Assembly: GCA_013823855.1 (NCBI GenBank) | Contig: PNMW01000035.1 | Location: 62,001 to 126,000 of the forward strand | DNA length: 64,000 nt | Origin: Lysobacteraceae bacterium | Lineage (GTDB): Bacteria; Pseudomonadota; Gammaproteobacteria; Nevskiales; Nevskiaceae | Direction: 5' to 3' | Part shown: positions 37,887-45,430 of the stretch, piece after piece | How the letters are laid out: every line of letters begins with the position of its first letter | How positions within the stretch are numbered: position 1 is the stretch's first letter | Position numbers and translations under genes: made by a program | Notes under the pieces: model-generated | The model's input: only the letters and a program-made list of their open reading frames with translations | The model's database searches: none | What the model was told of the DNA's origin: nothing

Positions 37887-38501
37887 TCAGGCGGCAAGAC
37901 GGCTGATCGCGTCACGGGCCTTGGCCAGACCGGCTTCCTTCTGCTCCGGGCCGATCGCCAGGCCTTCGGCGTAGACGAACTCGACATCGTCGAGGCCGAT
38001 GAAGCGCAGGAAGTCGCGAACATAGGTGGTCTGGCTGTCGAGCGCGGTGCCCTGGTACAGGCCGCCGCGGGTGGCGAACACGTAGACCTTCTTGCCGGTG
38101 ACCAGGCCGACCGGGCCGTTGGCGGTGTAGCGGAAGGTTTCACCGGCGCGGGCGATGTGGTCGAAGTAGCTCTTCAGCTGGCTCGGCACGCCGAAGTTGT
38201 ACATCGGCAGGCCGAGCACGACGACGTCGGCGGCCTTCAGTTCGGCGATCAGCGCATCGGAGTGGGCGATCACCGCGTTCTGCGCCGCGTCGCGCGATTC
38301 GGCCGGGGTCACGAACGCCGAGAAGCGGGCGCCGTCGAGATGGGGAATCGGATCGCTGGCGACGTCGCGCAGCACCCGCACCGTGCCCGGATGGGCGACG
38401 AGGAAGTCGGCGACGAAGCGCTCGGCAAGCTGGCTGGACTGGCCGTTGCCGGCGAACAGGCTGGTATTGATCTGCAGCAGGGTCGGGTGCTGGGTGCTCA
38501 T
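37887..38501 (-). CDS. azoR: FMN-dependent NADH-azoreductase / quinone reductase
   Basis: A 204-residue flavodoxin-fold enzyme that reduces azo bonds in vitro and, physiologically, quinones by two-electron transfer. Motifs: QINTSLFAGNGQSSQLAERF (FMN phosphate loop), PMYNFGVPSQLKSYFDHIARAGETFRYT and FATRGGLYQG. It leads the azoR-doxX-pirin operon. A palindromic A/T-rich region about 60 bp upstream is the likely control site. No dedicated regulator gene is adjacent. Confidence 0.93.
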   Translation of the reverse strand: MSTQHPTLLQINTSLFAGNGQSSQLAERFVADFLVAHPGTVRVLRDVASDPIPHLDGARFSAFVTPAESRDAAQNAVIAHSDALIAELKAADVVVLGLPMYNFGVPSQLKSYFDHIARAGETFRYTANGPVGLVTGKKVYVFATRGGLYQGTALDSQTTYVRDFLRFIGLDDVEFVYAEGLAIGPEQKEAGLAKARDAISRLAA

Positions 38502-38558: not shown

Positions 38559-38584
38559 AAAAAGCAGAAGTTTCTGAGCTTTTT
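38559..38584. promoter_or_regulatory. Palindromic control site upstream of azoR
   Basis: AAAAAGC and GCTTTTT flank CAGAA-GT-TTCTG, giving an almost continuous 26-bp palindrome in an A/T-rich patch that stands out from its GC-rich surroundings. Just beyond, GATCGA is repeated at 38585-38590 and 38594-38599. Taken as an operator rather than a terminator because no gene is transcribed into it. The rest of 38600-38820 shows nothing recognisable. Confidence 0.45.
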
Positions 38585-38820
38585 GATCGAACTGATCGAT
38601 AGAAAATCCTGGCTCGCCGACCTCGACGAGGGCGCGGCGGCGCTGCCGACGCGGCCTTCCGGCGCGCGGCCGGCCCGAGGGCAGCGCCGGTATTCGACCG
38701 TTGATCCAGATGCCGGGCCCGCCTGTCCCTTGTTCATTCGGTGGCCATCTGGCGGACAGGCGGCGACTCCTAAGGTCCGCTCGCCGTCATCACCGATGGT
38801 CCTGTCCCCGGAGCTTGCCG

Positions 38821-41589
38821 ATGTCCCTCGCCTTCCCGTTCCTGCCTGCTCCGCCGCCCGCCCGCGCGCTGGCCTTGGCCCTGATGCTGGCTGCCGCGCT
38901 GGGCGCCGGGCCGGCATCGGCGGCCGACGCGCTGCGCGGCAAGTCGCTGTACCTGAGCACGCCGGGCGGCATCTCCTGCGCCAACTCCAGCTGTCACGGC
39001 ACCAATGTCAGCGCCAACAAGAACAAGGTACTGCGCGGCGCCAACAACCCCACGACGATCCAGAACGCGATCAACCGCGATACCGGCGGCATGGGCATCT
39101 ACCGCAACAACGTGCTGACCGCGACCGACGTCGCCGACATCGCCGCCTACCTCGGCAACCCGAACGTCAGCGCCGGACCGGTGGCGACGGTGACGCCGGC
39201 TTCGCTCGCTTTCGGCACCGTCGCCGTCGGCAGCACCAGCACCGTGCAGACCGTGACCCTGCGCAACAGCGGCACGGCGACGCTGACGGTGGCCACGATC
39301 GCGGTCAGCAACGCCGCCTTCGTGATCGCCGGCGGCGGCAGCTGCGCAGCCGGCGGCAGTGTTGCCGCCGGCGGCAGCTGCACGGTGAACCTGCAGTTCC
39401 GGCCGACTGCCGCCGCTGCCGCCAGCGGCAGCCTGACCATCACCCACAACGCGGCGCCGGCCACCAGCACGGTCAGCCTGAGCGGTACCGGCGGCGGGGT
39501 TGCCGCGGCGGCAGTGACGCCGAGTTCCCTGTCCTTCGGTTCGGTCGCCACCGGCAGCCGGTCCGCGGTGCAGACCGCGACCGTGCAGAACAGCGGCTCG
39601 GCGGCACTGACCTTGTCGACGATCAGCGTCAGTAATACCCAGTTTCGCATCACCGGCGGCAGCTGTGCGGCCGGCGGTACCGTCGCCGCTGGCGGCGGCA
39701 GCTGCACGGTGCTGGTCGATTTCGGTCCGACTGCCACCGGTGCCGCCAGTGCCAACCTGAGCATCGCCCACAACGCCAGCGCCAGTCCGCTGCTGGTCGC
39801 GCTATCCGGCTCCGGCACCGTGCCGGCGGCCCCGGGCGCACAACTGTCGCCGGCCACGCTGACCTGGTCGCAGGTGATCAACACCACGTCGACCGCGCAG
39901 ACCGCGACCCTGTCGAACACCGGCACCGCGCCGCTGGCGATCACCCGCATCGGCCTGAGCGGAGCGGCGTCGGCCGATTACACGATCGCGGCCGGCTCGA
40001 CCTGCGCTGCGGGCGGCAGTATCGCCGCCGGCGCCTCGTGCAGCCTGAACCTGAGTTTCCGGCCCTCGGCGACCGGGACCCGTGCCGCCAGCCTGAGCGT
40101 GGTTCACAACGCCGCCGGCAGCCCGTCGACCCTGAACCTCAGCGGCACCGGCACGGCGCAGGCCAGCGGCCAGATCGCGGTCAATCGCCTGTCGCTGAGC
40201 TATGCCGCGCAGCCGTTCGGCAGCAGCAGCGCGGCGCAGACGGTCACCGTCAGCAACAGCGGCAGCGCCAGCCTGACCATCGCCAGCCTGGCCTTCGCCG
40301 GCAGCCACGCCGGTGACTTCGCGACCACGCCCGGCAGCGATCCCTGCACCAGCGGCCGCAGCCTGGCGGTCGCGGCCAGCTGCACGGTCGACGTGCTGTT
40401 CACGCCGACCGCCAGCAGCGGCACGCGGACCGCGACCCTGGTGGTCAGCGCCGGCAGCGCCGGCTCGGTGTCGGTGGGCCTGAGCGGCATCGCGGCGGCT
40501 GCGGCCGCGCCGATCGTCAGCCTGACGCCGGCCAGCCTGAACTTCGGCTCGGTGGCGATCGGCAGCAGCGCGCCCAGCCAGACCTCGGTGCTCGCCAACG
40601 GCGGCACGGCGTCGCTGTCGATCGCCAGCCTGCGGGCAGCACCGGCGGTCTACAGCCTGAGCCACGACTGCCCGGCGACGCTGGCCGCCGGCAGCCGCTG
40701 CACCTTGACCGTCGGCTTCACGCCGGCCGCCCCCGGTGCCGTGTCCGGCAGCGTCGCCATCGCCAGCAATGCCGCGACCACGCCGGACACGCTGGCGCTG
40801 TCGGGCACCGGGGTCACGCCGGTGCCGGCCGCGCTCGGCTGGGTCGGCGGCTCGACCCTGAGCTTTCCGGATACCGCCAGCGGGGCGCAGTCGGCACCGC
40901 AGGCGCTGCAGCTCGGCAACAGCGGCACCAGCCCGGCGGCGCTCGGGGGGTTCTCGTTCGCCGGCAGCGCGGCGGCCGATTACCTGATCGATCCGTCGAG
41001 CAGCTGCGCCACCGGCGGCAGCCTGGCCGGCGGCGCCCGCTGCACCCTGCAGGTGGTGTTCGCGCCGGCCTCGGTCGGCGCCCGCGACGCCACGCTGTCG
41101 GTGACCAGCAGCAATGCCACGGTGCCGGCACCGGCCAGCCTGAGCGGCAACGGCGTCGCCGGCGGCACGCCGCTGCTGGTGCTGTCGCCGACCGTGATCA
41201 CCCTGACCAGCCTGCCGAACCAGCCGCTGCAGCCGCAGGTGCTGGTGATCGGCAACCAGGGCGCCGGCCCGCTGAACGTCACCGCCGAACAGGCCAGCGA
41301 TGGCCTGGCGCTGCTCGACGCGGCGTCGACCGGCGGCGGCAGCTGCCGGCCGGTGCCGTTCGTGCTGGCGCCCGGCGCCAGCTGCACCCTGGTGATCAAT
41401 CCGCTGGCCGACGTCGTCAACGGCACGGTCAGCGTGTTCAGCGACAGCGCGGCGGCGCCGGCACAGGCGACGGTGACCGGCAGCGCCAGCAAGAACCTTG
41501 GCGCCGCCGGCAGCGCCGGCCCCGGCCTGGTGGCGCTGCTGGCGGCGCTGGCGCTGGTCCGTCGCCGCAAGCCGGCGCCGCGCGGCTGA
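38821..41589 (+). CDS. Secreted haem-motif protein with choice-of-anchor-D repeats
   Basis: A 922-residue exported protein. Residues 1-35 are a Sec signal peptide ending PASAADA. Residues 36-112 look like a small c-type cytochrome: GGISCANSSCHGTN, with an unusual CX4CH spacing instead of CXXCH, and TGGMGIYRNN...ATDVADIAAYLG with a possible axial Met. Then come about seven Ig-like repeats of 105-115 residues of choice-of-anchor-D/ASPM-SPD-2-Hydin type (LTPASLNFGSVAIGSS... LSGTG), most with a paired Cys in GGSC...SCT. The end, GPGLVALLAALALVRRRK, is a hydrophobic segment plus Arg cluster like C-terminal sorting tags. It heads the run of thioredoxin, DUF4266, DUF3570 and ApbE genes. Function unknown. 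Confidence 0.8.
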   Translation: MSLAFPFLPAPPPARALALALMLAAALGAGPASAADALRGKSLYLSTPGGISCANSSCHGTNVSANKNKVLRGANNPTTIQNAINRDTGGMGIYRNNVLTATDVADIAAYLGNPNVSAGPVATVTPASLAFGTVAVGSTSTVQTVTLRNSGTATLTVATIAVSNAAFVIAGGGSCAAGGSVAAGGSCTVNLQFRPTAAAAASGSLTITHNAAPATSTVSLSGTGGGVAAAAVTPSSLSFGSVATGSRSAVQTATVQNSGSAALTLSTISVSNTQFRITGGSCAAGGTVAAGGGSCTVLVDFGPTATGAASANLSIAHNASASPLLVALSGSGTVPAAPGAQLSPATLTWSQVINTTSTAQTATLSNTGTAPLAITRIGLSGAASADYTIAAGSTCAAGGSIAAGASCSLNLSFRPSATGTRAASLSVVHNAAGSPSTLNLSGTGTAQASGQIAVNRLSLSYAAQPFGSSSAAQTVTVSNSGSASLTIASLAFAGSHAGDFATTPGSDPCTSGRSLAVAASCTVDVLFTPTASSGTRTATLVVSAGSAGSVSVGLSGIAAAAAAPIVSLTPASLNFGSVAIGSSAPSQTSVLANGGTASLSIASLRAAPAVYSLSHDCPATLAAGSRCTLTVGFTPAAPGAVSGSVAIASNAATTPDTLALSGTGVTPVPAALGWVGGSTLSFPDTASGAQSAPQALQLGNSGTSPAALGGFSFAGSAAADYLIDPSSSCATGGSLAGGARCTLQVVFAPASVGARDATLSVTSSNATVPAPASLSGNGVAGGTPLLVLSPTVITLTSLPNQPLQPQVLVIGNQGAGPLNVTAEQASDGLALLDAASTGGGSCRPVPFVLAPGASCTLVINPLADVVNGTVSVFSDSAAAPAQATVTGSASKNLGAAGSAGPGLVALLAALALVRRRKPAPRG

Positions 41590-41622
41590 ACCCATCCCAA
41601 CCCCGAATCCAGGAGTCCTTCG

Positions 41623-42147
41623 ATGAACCCTTCATTGCTTCGGCCGAGCCGCCACGCGATCGCTGCCGCGCTGCTCGCCACCGTCGGCCTGCTGCCGGCC
41701 GCGCATGCGCTCGAGGCCGGCCAGCCGGCCCCGGCGTTCATCCTGCCGACCGCCGATGGCAAGACCGTCAGCCTCGCGGCGCTGCGCGGCCACTACGTCT
41801 ATGTCGATTTCTGGGCCTCGTGGTGCGGCCCATGCAAGCAGAGCTTTCCATGGATGAAGGCGCTGCAGGCGAAGCTCGGCGGGCCACACTTCGAAGTGGT
41901 GGCGATCAATGTCGACGAGCAGCAGGCCGATGCCAGGCGCTTCCTCGGCGACGCACCGGCCGGCTTCACCGTGCTGTTCGATGCCAGGGGTGCGACGCCG
42001 GCCGCCTATGGCGTTGAAGGCATGCCGACCTCGTTCCTGGTCGACCCGGACGGCAAGGTCGTGCTCGTGCACCAGAGCTTCAAGGACAGCGAGCGCGACG
42101 CGCTGGCGCAGAAGATCGCCGTGTTGGTCGGCGGGGCGCAGCCATGA
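41623..42147 (+). CDS. TlpA-like periplasmic thioredoxin
   Basis: A 174-residue exported thiol-disulfide oxidoreductase of the TlpA/ResA/AhpC-TSA group. Signal peptide at residues 1-29 (…LLPAAHALEAG), then VYVDFWASWCGPCKQSFPWMKAL with the WCGPC active site, and VEGMPTSFLVDPDGKVV with the cis-proline. It probably reduces or isomerises disulfides of neighbours, such as the cysteine pairs of the upstream repeat protein or the cysteine-rich DUF4266 lipoprotein. The stop overlaps the next start by 4 bp (ATGA). Confidence 0.9.
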   Translation: MNPSLLRPSRHAIAAALLATVGLLPAAHALEAGQPAPAFILPTADGKTVSLAALRGHYVYVDFWASWCGPCKQSFPWMKALQAKLGGPHFEVVAINVDEQQADARRFLGDAPAGFTVLFDARGATPAAYGVEGMPTSFLVDPDGKVVLVHQSFKDSERDALAQKIAVLVGGAQP

Positions 42148-42368
42148 ACCGGCTGGCCGCCGGCCTGATCGCAATCACCGCCTGCGCGGTGAGCAGCGGC
42201 TGCGCGATGCAGGCGCCGAAGCCCTGGCAGAAGGGCGTGCTCGCCAAGCCGGAAATGACCATGGCCGGCGACATGCTGGAACTGAAGTTCAACGACCACA
42301 CCTGGACCAGCAAGGAAGCCAGCTTCGGCGGCTTCGGCGTGGGGGGAGGCGGCTGTGGCTGCAACTGA
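42144..42368 (+). CDS. DUF4266 small lipoprotein
   Basis: A 74-residue lipoprotein. Signal peptide with lipobox VSSGC gives a mature lipidated Cys at about residue 20. The mature part holds the family pattern KPWQKGVLAKPEM and DHTWTSKEASFGGFGVGGGGCGCN, ending in a glycine/cysteine tail that could bind metal or form disulfides. DUF4266 genes are regularly found beside DUF3570 genes. The biochemical role is unknown. Overlaps the thioredoxin gene (4 bp) and the DUF3570 gene (14 bp). Confidence 0.87.
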   Translation: MNRLAAGLIAITACAVSSGCAMQAPKPWQKGVLAKPEMTMAGDMLELKFNDHTWTSKEASFGGFGVGGGGCGCN

Positions 42369-43518
42369 GCGCGATCCCGCCGTTGCGGATGCTGCCCCGG
42401 CCCGCGACTGGTGCGGCAGCGTCGTGCTGGCGGCGCTGTCGCTGCCGGGCGTGCTCGGCGCGCCATTGCCGGCAGCGGCCGACAGCGCCCCCGAGCACGC
42501 GACCCTGCAGTTCAAGACCGAGCATTACCAGGACTCGCAGCCGGGCTTCCAGCGCATTCGTGTCGAGGAACCGGCGATCTACGGGCTGCTGCCGCTCGGC
42601 GAGCATCTGTCGCTGTCCGGCTCGGCGGTCTATGACGTGGTGTCCGGCGCCTCGCCGCGCAGCTATTCGTCGACCTCGAGCGCGTCGCGCGTCCACGAGA
42701 AGCGCTTTTCCGGCGACGCCGAGCTGACCTGGTACGCCGACCGCAGTTCGTACGGCGTTTCGGCGGCACGCTCGCAGGAGCACGACTACATCTCCAACAG
42801 CGTGTCCGGCGACGCGGTGTTCGCGACCGACGACAACAACACGGCGTTCAACATCGGCCTGTCGGCCAGCCGCGACACCATCAACCCGACCAACGACATC
42901 GTCGACGACGAGCACCGCACGACCTACGCCGGCATCGTCGGCGTGACCCGCGCGGTCAGCGTCAATGATCTGGTCCAGATCCAGGCCGGCTACAGCACCA
43001 GCCACGGCTATCTGAGCGATCCGTACAAGCTGTTCGACAACCGGCCGCGCAAGCGCAACAGCGGCACCGGCTCGCTGCGCTGGAATCACCACCTCGGCGA
43101 CTACGGCGCGACCCTGCGCGGCAGCTACCGGGTGTTCCACGACACCTATGGCATCTGGTCGCACACCGCCGAGCTGCAGTGGGTGCAGCCGGTCGGCCTG
43201 CACTGGGTGCTGACGCCAGGGCTGCGCTACTACACGCAGAACGCGGCGCGCTTCTATGTCGATCCGCCGGCCGATGGCGCGCCGTTCCCGCAGCTGCCGG
43301 ACGGTGCCTTCTCCTCGCTCGATCACCGGCTGTCGGCGTTCGGCGCGTTCGCGGTCAGCCAGAAGGTCGAGTGGCACATCAACGCGCACTGGAGCACCGA
43401 CTTCCGCGGCGAGTTCTACCAGGCGCGGTCGAGCTTCCGCTTCGTCGGCCAGGGCTCGCCGGGGCTTGCCACGTTCCAGTACTACCAGCTGCAGTTCGGC
43501 ATCAGCTACCGGTTCTGA
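42355..43518 (+). CDS. DUF3570 outer-membrane beta-barrel, possible flavoprotein
   Basis: A 387-residue predicted outer-membrane barrel. A hydrophobic signal segment lies at about 20-42 (VVLAALSLPGVLGAPLPAAA). The rest alternates amphipathic strands (for example LSLSGSAVYDVVSG, LTWYADRSSYGVSAARS) and ends in aromatic YRF, as barrel proteins do. At residues 94-100 the sequence DVVSGAS fits the D-x-x-[S/T]-G-A-[S/T] motif to which ApbE attaches FMN, with Ser100 as possible acceptor; apbE is the next gene. The start is GTG 42355 behind the strong site GGGGGAGG. Whether this barrel is flavinylated in this organism is inference. Confidence 0.83.
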   Translation: MAATERDPAVADAAPARDWCGSVVLAALSLPGVLGAPLPAAADSAPEHATLQFKTEHYQDSQPGFQRIRVEEPAIYGLLPLGEHLSLSGSAVYDVVSGASPRSYSSTSSASRVHEKRFSGDAELTWYADRSSYGVSAARSQEHDYISNSVSGDAVFATDDNNTAFNIGLSASRDTINPTNDIVDDEHRTTYAGIVGVTRAVSVNDLVQIQAGYSTSHGYLSDPYKLFDNRPRKRNSGTGSLRWNHHLGDYGATLRGSYRVFHDTYGIWSHTAELQWVQPVGLHWVLTPGLRYYTQNAARFYVDPPADGAPFPQLPDGAFSSLDHRLSAFGAFAVSQKVEWHINAHWSTDFRGEFYQARSSFRFVGQGSPGLATFQYYQLQFGISYRF

Positions 43519-43526
43519 ACGAGGCC

Positions 43527-44438
43527 ATGCCGGCAGCGGACGACGACGGCGTCACCACGATGCGCTTCGGGGCGATGGCCTGCGAGGCCGAGCTGACCGT
43601 GGCCGGCCGCGCGCCGGATCGCCGCCTGCTCGACGCCGCGGCGGCCGAGGTGCGGCGCATCGAAGCGGCGTATTCGCGCTATCGCGCCGACAGCGTCGTG
43701 TCGCGGATCAATGCCGCTGCGGGCTCCGGCGAGCCGATCACGGTCGACGAGGAAACGGCGGGCCTGCTCGACTTCGCCGCCCGCCTGCATGCGCAGAGCG
43801 ACGGCCTGTTCGACATCACCAGCGGCATCCTGCGCCGGGCCTGGGATTTCCGCTCCGGGCGCCTGCCGGAGGCCCCGGTGCTGGCCGCGCTGTGCGCGCG
43901 CATCGGCTGGCACAAGGTCGACTGGCAGCCGGCGACGCGGCGGATCGCGCTGACCGAGCCGGGCATGGAGCTGGACTTCGGCGGCTTCGGCAAGGAGTAC
44001 GCCGCCGACCGCGCGGCGGCGGTGCTGCAGGCCGGCGGCATCGCCAGCGGCTACGTCAATCTGGGCGGCGACCTGCGGGTGATCGGCCCGCCTGCCGATG
44101 GCCGTGGCTGGGCGCTCGGCATCCAGCATCCGCGCGATGACCGGCGCACGGTGGCCGGCATCGAACTGAAAGGCGGGGCACTGGCGACCAGCGGCGACTA
44201 CGAGCGCTACCTGGACCTCGACGGCCGCCGCTACTGCCACATCCTCGATCCGCGCAGTGGCTGGCCGGTGCAGCACTGGCAGTCGGTCAGCGTGATCGCG
44301 CCGGTCTGCCTCGCCGCCGGTGCGCTGTCGACCATCGCGATGCTCAAGGGACCGGCCGCGCCGGCGTTCCTCGATGCGCAGAGGGTGCCCTGGCTGGCCG
44401 TCGACACCGCTGGCCTGCCGGTCCGCAACGGCATCTGA
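43527..44438 (+). CDS. apbE: FAD:protein FMN transferase (ApbE)
   Basis: A 303-residue flavin transferase that moves FMN from FAD onto Ser/Thr of target proteins with Mg2+. Motifs: the AAYSRYRADSVVSRINAAAG region, LHAQSDGLFDITSG, LDFGGFGKEYAADRAA, GYVNLGGDLRVIG, ATSGDYERYLD and HILDPRSGWPV. Unlike most ApbE proteins it has no signal peptide or lipobox, and no upstream in-frame extension offers one. That is puzzling if its target is the exported DUF3570 protein encoded 8 bp upstream. Last gene of the envelope redox run. Confidence 0.9.
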   Translation: MPAADDDGVTTMRFGAMACEAELTVAGRAPDRRLLDAAAAEVRRIEAAYSRYRADSVVSRINAAAGSGEPITVDEETAGLLDFAARLHAQSDGLFDITSGILRRAWDFRSGRLPEAPVLAALCARIGWHKVDWQPATRRIALTEPGMELDFGGFGKEYAADRAAAVLQAGGIASGYVNLGGDLRVIGPPADGRGWALGIQHPRDDRRTVAGIELKGGALATSGDYERYLDLDGRRYCHILDPRSGWPVQHWQSVSVIAPVCLAAGALSTIAMLKGPAAPAFLDAQRVPWLAVDTAGLPVRNGI

Positions 44439-44467
44439 AGCTGCGGCAGGCCCGGCGGCGCGGCATC

Positions 44468-45430
44468 ATGCGCGCCATGTCGGCTCCCAAAATCTCGCTG
44501 GAACAATGGCGCGCGCTGCTTGGCGTCGTCGAGGCCGGTGGCTACGCGCAGGCGGCCGAGGCGCTGCACAAGAGCCAGTCGGCGATCAGCTATGCGGTAC
44601 AGCAGATCGAGGCGCGGCTCGGCGTCAAGGCCTTCGAGGTGCAGGGCCGCAAGGCGGTGCTGACGCCGACCGGCCAGCTGCTGGCGCGCCGCGCCAAGGC
44701 GCTGCTCGACGAGGCGGCCGGGCTGGAGCGCGCCGCCGGGCAGCTGTCGGCCGGCTGGGAAGCCGAACTGCGGCTGGCGGTGGAGATCATCTTCCCGAAT
44801 CGCGTGCTGCTGCCGGCACTGGCCGCGTTCGGCGAGGTCAGCCCGCACACCCGCATCGAGCTGATCGAATCGGTGATCGGCGGCACTTCCGAAGCGCTGC
44901 TCAGCGGCCGGGTCGATCTGGCGATCGCGCCGGTCATTCCACAGGGCTTCATCGGCGAGGCGCTGATGAGCCTGCGCTTTCTCGCCGTGGCCCATCCGGC
45001 GCATCCGCTGCACCAGCTGAACCGGCCGCTGACGCCGAACGACCTGCGCAACCACCGGCATCTGGTGGTGCGCGACTCCGGTGCCGCGCGCGATCCGCGC
45101 CAGCAGACGCTCGACGCCAAGCAGCGCTGGGTGGTCAGCCACATGTCGACCTCGATCCAGGCGGTGGCGATGGGCTATGGCTTTTCGTGGTTCCCCGAAG
45201 ACAAGATCGCCGACGAACTGGCGGCCGGCACCGTGAAGCCGCTGCCGCTGCGCGATGGTGCCGAACGCTTCCTGACCCTTTACCTGATCTTCGCCGACCG
45301 CGACTATGCGGGGCCCGGCCTGCTGCGCCTGAGTGACCTCCTGCGCCAGACCGTGGCCGAGAACTGCGCCCGCAAGCAGGCGCAGGCCGATACTTCGAAG
45401 ACAACCAGAACGAGGAGCAAGCGGACATGA
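44468..45430 (+). CDS. LysR family transcriptional regulator
   Basis: A 320-residue regulator with an N-terminal winged helix (LEQWRALLGVVEAGGYAQAAEALHKSQSAISYAVQQIEARLGVKAFEVQGRKAVLTPTG) and a C-terminal periplasmic-binding-like effector domain, ending in a basic tail. Starts at 44468 or 44477 are both possible. It lies 29 bp after apbE on the same strand and is coupled to the GFA gene by ATGA overlap, so it may sit in the apbE message. Its target and inducer are unknown. Confidence 0.9.
   Translation: MRAMSAPKISLEQWRALLGVVEAGGYAQAAEALHKSQSAISYAVQQIEARLGVKAFEVQGRKAVLTPTGQLLARRAKALLDEAAGLERAAGQLSAGWEAELRLAVEIIFPNRVLLPALAAFGEVSPHTRIELIESVIGGTSEALLSGRVDLAIAPVIPQGFIGEALMSLRFLAVAHPAHPLHQLNRPLTPNDLRNHRHLVVRDSGAARDPRQQTLDAKQRWVVSHMSTSIQAVAMGYGFSWFPEDKIADELAAGTVKPLPLRDGAERFLTLYLIFADRDYAGPGLLRLSDLLRQTVAENCARKQAQADTSKTTRTRSKRT

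Follow-up and report, generated by a model that had tools for sequence, protein, structure and literature searches.

The window, a 64,000-nucleotide stretch of contig PNMW01000035.1 from a Lysobacteraceae bacterium, carries a five-gene block between an azoR-like gene and a lysR gene. The last four genes encode a thioredoxin-like protein, a small DUF4266 protein, a DUF3570 barrel and an ApbE. The features, in coordinates of the window, are as follows.

37887..38501, minus strand: azoR-like flavodoxin-fold reductase (Flavodoxin_2, 6.5e-48), left flank of the block and outside the unit
38574..44464, no strand assigned: five-gene block of about 5.9 kb between azoR and lysR, present also in relative G417 and absent in G418
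38821..41589, plus strand: cytochrome-c-like/choice-of-anchor D gene, with an ATG start hand-picked inside ORF 38701-41589
41623..42147, plus strand: tlpA, thioredoxin-like (Pfam Redoxin, 1.5e-25; WASWCGPC)
42144..42368, plus strand: DUF4266, small putative lipoprotein (PF14086, 5.6e-18)
42355..43518, plus strand: DUF3570 outer-membrane beta-barrel, 387 aa including the leader (PF12094, E=3.9e-51; AlphaFold2)
42634..42654, plus strand: intact flavinylation motif DVVSGAS, residues 94-100, FMN predicted on Ser100
42676..42687, plus strand: the family's second flavinylation site, here SSAS (Gly to Ser), SGAS in relative L036
43527..44438, plus strand: apbE without recognisable signal peptide, start MPAADDDGVTTMRFGAMACEAEL (PF02424, 1e-77)
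44468..45430, plus strand: LysR regulator (family match; neighbour of azoR in relatives), right flank of the block

On recheck, the coordinates in the initial annotation all held, and so did its description of overlapping or nearly overlapping genes: tlpA and DUF4266 share 4 bp, DUF4266 and DUF3570 share 14 bp, and the ATG of apbE at 43527 lies 8 bp past the DUF3570 stop. The DUF3570 start was taken at a GTG and the apbE start at an ATG, both putative. The annotated unit of four genes was right in its members and too short in its extent, the cytochrome-c-like gene being part of the block as well. In the close relative G418 the block is missing and azoR and lysR adjoin. When the locus of this relative (L315) was compared with the window by blastn, homology stopped at 38573 on the left and resumed at 44465 on the right, the two homology ends being separated by 27 bp in L315. 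In the comparison with locus L320 a weak match extends to 38600, so the left edge of the block is uncertain by about 30 bp. The azoR gene stands beside lysR in 23 of 28 relatives' loci that lack the block. A scan of the locus for promoters and terminators found none.

The relatives' loci used below comprise the top 80 of 389 confirmed ones, together with genomes of the phylum (398) and of the order (85), in which DUF3570 is present in 29 and 45, respectively; loci from the phylum and order genomes were fetched for part of the matches. An apbE was called adjacent when it lay on the same strand and started at most 1,500 bases from the end of the barrel gene. Row counts for the termini of ApbE, DUF3570 and DUF4266 include the duplicates L036/L233 and L037/L230 and two pieces of L232.

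The tlpA product has a leader by eye and a CGPC motif, and its best matches are Redoxin and AhpC-TSA; it does not match PF13899, the family named in passages of Meheust et al. 2021 (PMC8238504). The DUF4266 product, described initially as a cysteine-tailed lipoprotein, is a putative one: it has the string SSGC and a Gly-rich tail ending in CGCN. Among its homologue rows, all 170 carry a CxC tail and 162 of 170 carry GCGCN. No DsbD gene was found among the genes scanned beside the operon, and the one DsbD-type gene of this genome lies on a different contig. Among relatives, 36 of the 52 downstream ORFs called were scanned (operon strand only (41)), and in 15 of these 36 DsbD comes next.

As the initial annotation had read it, DVVSGAS occupies residues 94-100 of DUF3570 (codons 42634-42654); the family's published second site, here SSAS, had been missed. 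This second site is intact (SGAS) in L036, a relative 90% identical to the window protein, and 51 of the 136 that have an adjacent apbE, counting the window protein, likewise show a lone intact first site. Because shuffling the barrel sequence 20,000 times yields D-x-x-[ST]-G-A-[ST] in 0.5% and the bare [ST]GA[ST] in 7.7% of cases, a single occurrence of the motif is modest evidence and conservation carries the weight. Across an alignment of 56 sequences including the window protein (A4; its members, like those of the 36-row alignment A8, were hand-picked), D94, S97, G98, A99 and P101 are invariant. This invariant core rules out a chance motif in a porin. Of the DUF3570s with adjacent apbE, 133 of 136 have an intact motif and 3 of 136 an imperfect one, a tally from which three duplicates and five contig-edge rows were removed beforehand and which excludes L056, whose "adjacent" ApbE is a profile artefact (L056 is still among the 140 rows of the leader test described below). 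The suggestion that conservation of the motif might be confined to barrels with a neighbouring apbE does not stand in that form: the motif is present in 21 of 21 P-type DUF3570s that have no apbE next to them, and in the apbE-less "IDV" clade it is kept in 4 of 10, its Gly being lost in 6 of 10. These two groups rule out a motif restricted to barrels beside apbE.

AlphaFold2 predicts the window DUF3570 as a 16-strand outer-membrane barrel (pLDDT 92.7, pTM 0.87) with an even strand number, short periplasmic turns, long outer loops and a C-terminal aromatic residue. Barrel matches to it are present in the PDB; a PDB sequence search with alignment A4 found nothing at E values up to 1. A Chlorobiaceae homologue is also modelled as a barrel (88.2), and the motif ends strand 3 in both models. 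In the predicted window barrel both flavinylation sites border extracellular loop 2, where the model is weakest (mature-chain residues 64-68 below pLDDT 50) and where it matters most. When model and alignment are combined, the extracellular half holds 30 of the 33 invariant positions (25 of 28 with the motif excluded) and 46 of the 64 conserved at the 90% level, and the most conserved strand zone is the lumen-facing extracellular third (0.81). A hydrophobic leader, scored at the threshold used for ApbE, is found in 149 of 175 DUF3570 rows. Cysteine is absent from the mature window barrel.

The window ApbE has no signal peptide or lipobox as judged by hydrophobicity and lipobox pattern. Our leader test, a hydrophobicity count rather than SignalP, scored a 12-residue mean KD of at least 1.8. 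Such a hydrophobic N-terminus was found in 2 of 140 DUF3570-adjacent ApbE rows and in 31 of 42 other ApbEs, a comparison that gave the control ApbEs the longer stretch; when both groups were cut alike, the counts were 1 of 140 and 27 of 42. Lipobox-like strings occur in 8 of 140 and 19 of 42, respectively. The 42 controls were hand-picked from the strongest non-adjacent matches, with the genome's two other ApbEs added. By score, L276 among them belongs to the DUF3570 type, and 11 of the 42, the two from this genome included, also fall below the hydrophobicity threshold. Many DUF3570-adjacent apbE ORFs leave little upstream room for a signal.

The ApbE linked to the barrel is also distinct in type. 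Searching with the window ApbE, phmmer confirmed 94 of the 95 adjacent-ApbE rows covered, and with profile A5 the DUF3570-type ApbEs score at least 325 bits and the other ApbEs listed at most 237 bits. A FastTree phylogeny of 46 adjacent and 42 other ApbEs (every third adjacent ApbE was used and three odd rows were omitted) has 2 label changes against a shuffle mean of 29.7, the grouping not being strictly one clade. This score separation, with the clustering of the DUF3570-associated type in the tree, rules out the other ApbEs as equal partner candidates. A DUF3570-type ApbE is encoded elsewhere in 11 of 11 genomes examined that have a motif-bearing DUF3570 and no adjacent apbE (11 of 12 such phylum and order genomes; G446 was left out), and by score in 0 of 7 genomes with only IDV-clade DUF3570s, which do contain other ApbEs. 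Counting against our best explanation, the IDV-clade barrels of G015 and G427 carry [ST]GAS, yet these genomes have no DUF3570-type ApbE.

Since the DUF3570-adjacent ApbEs lack a hydrophobic N-terminus, flavinylation probably takes place in the cytosol, ahead of export. The initial annotation had asked whether a model would place the site out of reach of ApbE, and the answer is divided: a periplasmic ApbE would be blocked from the folded barrel in the membrane, but the window ApbE has no export signal, which makes modification of the unfolded precursor the likelier route. Flavinylation in the periplasm is the unlikely alternative, in which either the signal-less ApbE would leave the cytosol along a path not yet recognised, or the unfolded barrel would be modified by a different, exported ApbE during its transit of the periplasm. 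It would accord with passages of a review in which characterised ApbEs are mostly exported lipoproteins (PMC12052999) and with the presence of at least one ApbE in 68 of 68 DUF3570-bearing genomes examined, many of which have two to four. Yet the type of ApbE that goes with the motif is the signal-less one, many of its ORFs lacking upstream room, and that type is missing from 7 of 7 IDV-only genomes although other ApbEs are present there. The SecYEG pore is put at about 0.4 nm, with plasticity, in passages of a review (PMC6028853); given this size, we counted the passage of FMN through SecYEG against cytosolic attachment.

The gene that heads the operon encodes a secreted protein with a cytochrome-c-like domain, then choice-of-anchor D repeats and a C-terminal hydrophobic and basic tail. 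Its match to NCBIfam choice_anch_D is strong (E=1.8e-108), and that to Cytochrome_CBB3 (E=1.7e-5, 25.5 bits) lies below the Pfam cut-off of 27. The putative heme motif is CANSSCH (C-x4-C-H) in the window protein and CxxCH in many relatives. A homologue precedes the corresponding genes in 38 of 80 loci (the best 80 of 389 confirmed) and was not found in the other 42 of 80, with less than 3.5 kb of upstream sequence in 16 of 84 rows. It occurs in 8 of 90 rows from more diverse genomes and is thus rare in distant relatives. Missing from so many loci, the gene is a non-core part of the system. In 15 ORFs the cytochrome/choice-of-anchor-D protein and the thioredoxin are fused, Duganella and Janthinobacterium being among the hosts of the fusion. 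The JDVT-CTERM sorting tag found in relatives was undetected in this genome by a search that scored in no control genome. In a sorting-protease scan of ORFs near the relatives' cytochrome genes, MrtJ was absent from the 25 families shown of 91, and ECF sigma factors appeared in 2 of 18; this upstream-family scan took in 26 of 46 called ORFs, operon strand only (32).

We consider it rather probable that the operon encodes a flavin-bearing outer-membrane barrel with a thiol supply line, electrons passing from thiol to flavin to the outside. The envelope redox unit with an ApbE-flavinylated barrel that the initial annotation had proposed gains support from experiments on a Chlorobium homologue (PMC8238504, in the passages available), from the model and from conservation. 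Gene content, motif conservation, the barrel fold and site placement in the model, and the leaderless ApbE were computed directly; we infer covalent FMN on the window DUF3570, the direction of the electrons and their acceptor. The cytosolic, signal-less ApbE would transfer FMN from FAD to Ser100 of the unfolded DUF3570 precursor. Sec would then export the modified chain and BAM would fold the 16-strand barrel, placing FMN at the extracellular mouth with its serine towards the lumen, inside the conserved pocket. Judging by gene linkage in relatives, cytosolic electrons may flow through a DsbD-type protein to TlpA, on to the CGC tail of DUF4266 and from there to FMN, and the Gly-rich arm could let that tail enter the barrel. 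Most speculatively, FMN might pass its electrons to a cell-surface acceptor, perhaps the cytochrome-c-like/choice-of-anchor-D protein that heads the operon. The complete scheme, an outer-membrane flavin conduit with cytosolic attachment by a dedicated signal-less ApbE, carriage by Sec and BAM, and a thiol relay to the surface, here to a surface-sorted cytochrome c, is tentative, and we would not expect all of its parts to hold together.

The same parts could serve a sulfhydryl-oxidase-like unit in which DUF4266 and TlpA thiols would feed FMN and then oxygen, making envelope disulfides in place of respiratory electron export. Oxidases of the Erv2/QSOX type are built from such components, namely thioredoxin, flavin and a mobile CGC tail. 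We give this reading a small chance, since 15 of the 36 relatives scanned have DsbD, which donates reductant, immediately downstream, the cytochrome-c-like gene is linked in this lineage, and the barrel is present in Chlorobiaceae, which are anaerobes. Slimmer still is the prospect of a transport porin whose motif is a structural element of the mouth, flavin being absent or incidental in this species: the IDV clade, with barrel, DUF4266 and thioredoxin, no adjacent apbE and a motif eroded in 6 of 10, points to a flavin-free life of the barrel, and the second site is already lost to SSAS in the window protein, but the first site is intact, apbE is retained alongside and a homologue is flavinylated (passages of PMC8238504).

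The flavinylated DUF3570 and its gene cluster are not a new idea, having been published in 2021 (PMC8238504). In the passages available of that study, the cognate ApbE flavinylates DUF3570 of Chlorobium luteolum, and only mutation of both sites puts an end to the modification; clusters of ApbE, DUF3570, thioredoxin-like and DUF4266 genes are described as "DsbD systems" together with 316 clusters without DsbD, and the function of the system is left uncertain. The window locus resembles these clusters in bringing the same four families together, with [ST]GA[ST] in DUF3570 and a CxC tail in DUF4266. It differs from the DsbD subtype in having no adjacent DsbD, from the two-site arrangement in having one intact [ST]GA[ST] site, and from both in its leading cytochrome-c-like/choice-of-anchor-D gene, unmentioned in those passages. 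Those passages do not state a barrel fold, the sidedness of the site or a lack of signal in ApbE, the word "barrel" occurring 0 times in the main text; the predicted outward-facing site, the seemingly cytosolic ApbE, the linked cytochrome gene and the block boundaries therefore look new relative to them. A 2024 study (PMC11334425) compares, in the part available, AlphaFold settings of ApbE sites in FMN-bind, NqrB/RnfD, DUF2271 and other proteins, and the word DUF3570 is absent from its survey of flavinylated proteins. A literature search combining flavinylation, beta-barrel and outer membrane returned, by title, only works on other subjects. The nearest case of cytosolic attachment is in Klebsiella pneumoniae, where, as told in passages of PMC12052999, a cytosolic ApbE, likewise without signal peptide, acts on fumarate reductase; that substrate is soluble, whereas here it would be an exported outer-membrane barrel.

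The side of the site, the cytosolic-looking ApbE and the lineage-linked cytochrome make the question of function experimentally tractable. If FMN is attached before export, it would be out of the ordinary for an outer-membrane protein to receive its cofactor in the cytosol and for the flavinylated chain to pass through Sec; if the FMN faces out, Gram-negative bacteria would gain a small flavin electron port besides multiheme conduits. In MtrCAB-type porin-cytochrome conduits, electrons cross the outer membrane through a barrel; by analogy, the barrel proposed here would itself bear the flavin, a thiol lipoprotein replacing the multiheme cytochrome. In the sulfhydryl oxidases Erv2p and QSOX, a flexible CGC dithiol and a thioredoxin partner feed a flavin, a likeness of parts, whereas the flavin here would be FMN held covalently on the barrel.

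The tight succession of thioredoxin, DUF4266, DUF3570 barrel and ApbE genes described in the initial annotation agrees with the coordinates and with a clear Pfam match for each gene; neighbors overlap or lie 8 bp apart. The region comprises:

37887-38501, azoreductase-like gene (azoR), left flank of the block
38701-41589, ORF upstream of tlpA, cytochrome-c-like domain (CANSSCH) and choice-of-anchor D repeats
41623-42147, tlpA
42144-42368, DUF4266
42355-43518, DUF3570
43527-44438, apbE
44468-45430, lysR, right flank of the block

The DUF4266 C-terminus is C-x-C in 170/170 rows. DUF3570 carries DVVSGAS at residues 94-100, as had been claimed; D-x-x-[ST]-G-A-[ST] arises by chance in 0.5% of shuffled barrel sequences, and Asp94, Ser97, Gly98, Ala99, and Pro101 are invariant in an alignment of 56 sequences including that of the window. 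A second motif, frequent in the family, lies within the loop after the first; it reads SSAS in the window and SGAS in L036, a 90% identical DUF3570 from a gammaproteobacterial MAG (isolate name LacPavin). After removal of one locus (L056), 136 DUF3570s have an adjacent ApbE: 77 bear both sites, 3 lack both, 51 have the first alone, and 5 the second alone. Elsewhere, an in-frame stop codon splits a homologue of the window DUF3570 (L232, genome G451), another DUF3570 sits inside an open frame that, at 912 codons, is unusually long (L126, G102), and Chlorobiaceae DUF3570 genes are clustered, four in L100 and two in L107.

An apbE lies downstream of 136 of the 167 DUF3570s counted, with the motif intact in 133 of these 136. 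The expectation that the motif is kept only beside apbE failed, as it persists in 21/21 DUF3570s of the same type without an adjacent apbE and, as [ST]GAS, in 4/10 members of the separate IDV clade. A matching ApbE type, judged by score, was encoded elsewhere in all 11 genomes examined that have a motif-bearing, apbE-less DUF3570 (11 of 12 such genomes in the more diverse second set). The IDV clade retains thioredoxin, DUF4266, and barrel with no apbE alongside; the motif glycine is gone in 6/10, and the matching ApbE is absent in 7/7 genomes whose only DUF3570s are of this clade, so the barrel can exist flavin-free. Motif and DUF3570-type ApbE co-occur, with exceptions (genomes G015 and G427 and three barrels without a perfect motif). 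A phmmer search found no apbE in the neighborhood of the motif-bearing DUF3570 of Pseudoduganella namucuonensis (L071); related Duganella loci differ. In several of the genomes with IDV-clade loci (among these loci are L144 in G267 and L141 in G246), another ApbE is encoded about 6-19 kb away. The neighbors of the IDV DUF3570 in G267 include further outer-membrane barrels, together with a protein that has PD40 repeats and a hydrazine-synthase-alpha middle domain.

The window ApbE starts with MPAADDDGVTTMRFGAMACEAEL, and a hydrophobicity count, used rather than a signal-peptide predictor, found no recognizable export signal on it. In 140 rows of DUF3570-adjacent ApbEs, a median of 24 residues of the allowed stretch precedes the conserved core. 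A hydrophobic segment of signal strength occurs in 2/140 adjacent ApbEs versus 31/42 hand-picked others from the same genome set, although the upstream stretch given to the latter was longer; trimming all sequences alike to 45 residues, counted from the first Met, gives 1/140 versus 27/42. Lipobox-like strings occur in 8/140 versus 19/42. Eleven of the 42 controls also fall below the threshold, among them the other two ApbEs of the window's own genome (C31:15413-16243 and C11:68896-69735), neither with a clear signal peptide by this test. At the same threshold, 149/175 DUF3570 barrels have a hydrophobic leader.

A predicted cytosolic ApbE and an exported barrel would be compatible if FMN were added before export; the main rival on assembly is flavinylation in the periplasm. 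The methods of PMC8238504 describe signal-truncated constructs for a DUF2271 pair and, for the DUF3570, speak of "a similar cloning strategy"; the test DUF3570 came from the pellet, under denaturing conditions, and was nonetheless flavinylated, which fits FMN addition before export. One bacterial cytosolic ApbE is recounted in the portion seen of a 2025 review, with a soluble fumarate reductase as substrate (PMC12052999). The weak point of pre-export flavinylation is passage through SecYEG: the sections available of a review give a pore of 0.4 nm, with plasticity, and cite work on preproteins bearing rigid spheres (PMC6028853).

The azoreductase-like and LysR genes are direct neighbors in 23/28 related loci without the operon (30 loci kept out of 58 genomes). 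In the window and in G417, a block (38574-44464) stands between them; G418, whose LysR is 94% identical, has 27 bp at this place. Because the block carries all five genes (cytochrome-like, tlpA, DUF4266, DUF3570, and apbE), it supports their being one unit here. A close barrel homologue (at least 52% identity) occurs in 3/18 genomes of the genus, the window's own included, and gain of the block is likelier than loss, judged from counts. The block interrupts a divergent azoR-lysR pair conserved in relatives, placing lysR directly behind apbE and perhaps altering lysR expression.

A cytochrome/choice-of-anchor D homologue lies upstream of the thioredoxin in 38 of the best 80 of 389 confirmed loci, 36/38 with a C-x2-4-C-H motif. 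In the more diverse set such a gene was found in 8/90 rows, so the cytochrome-like gene belongs to the window's lineage and not to the whole DUF3570 family. The heme-like motif of the window protein (38821-41589) and several relatives is C-x4-C-H; others of this family have C-x2-C-H. Cytochrome, repeats, and thioredoxin share one reading frame in 15 ORFs. Among 26 upstream ORFs scanned, 16 had choice-of-anchor D and 12 JDVT-CTERM. This tag is a relative of MYXO-CTERM, and MYXO-CTERM proteins are delivered to the cell surface (PMC11980579). The upstream protein of the window matched the repeats and gave no JDVT-CTERM match. DsbD is the next gene in 15/36 downstream ORFs scanned; in the window's own genome, a DsbD-type gene is on a separate contig.

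The tools themselves gave the gene content, the fold, the site position in the model, and the lack of a hydrophobic leader on ApbE. The best reading is probably that electrons would pass from thiol to flavin to the outside, the flavin having been installed before export; flavin on the window DUF3570, electron direction, and acceptor are what we infer. On purpose, the main rival is a sulfhydryl oxidase.

Within the literature searched, DUF3570 and DUF4266 appear by name only in Meheust et al. (2021; PMC8238504). In the parts of that paper available, DUF3570 is an ApbE substrate with two conserved [ST]GA[ST] motifs; when co-expressed in E. coli with its own ApbE, the Chlorobium luteolum protein becomes flavinylated, and this is lost only if both serines are replaced. 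Clusters of ApbE, DUF3570, a thioredoxin-like protein, and DUF4266 are likewise described, with 227 DUF3570 clusters adjoining DsbD and 316 clusters that lack it, their function being left uncertain by the authors. Since both flavinylation and cluster are described there, the window operon is a new member of an already published system.
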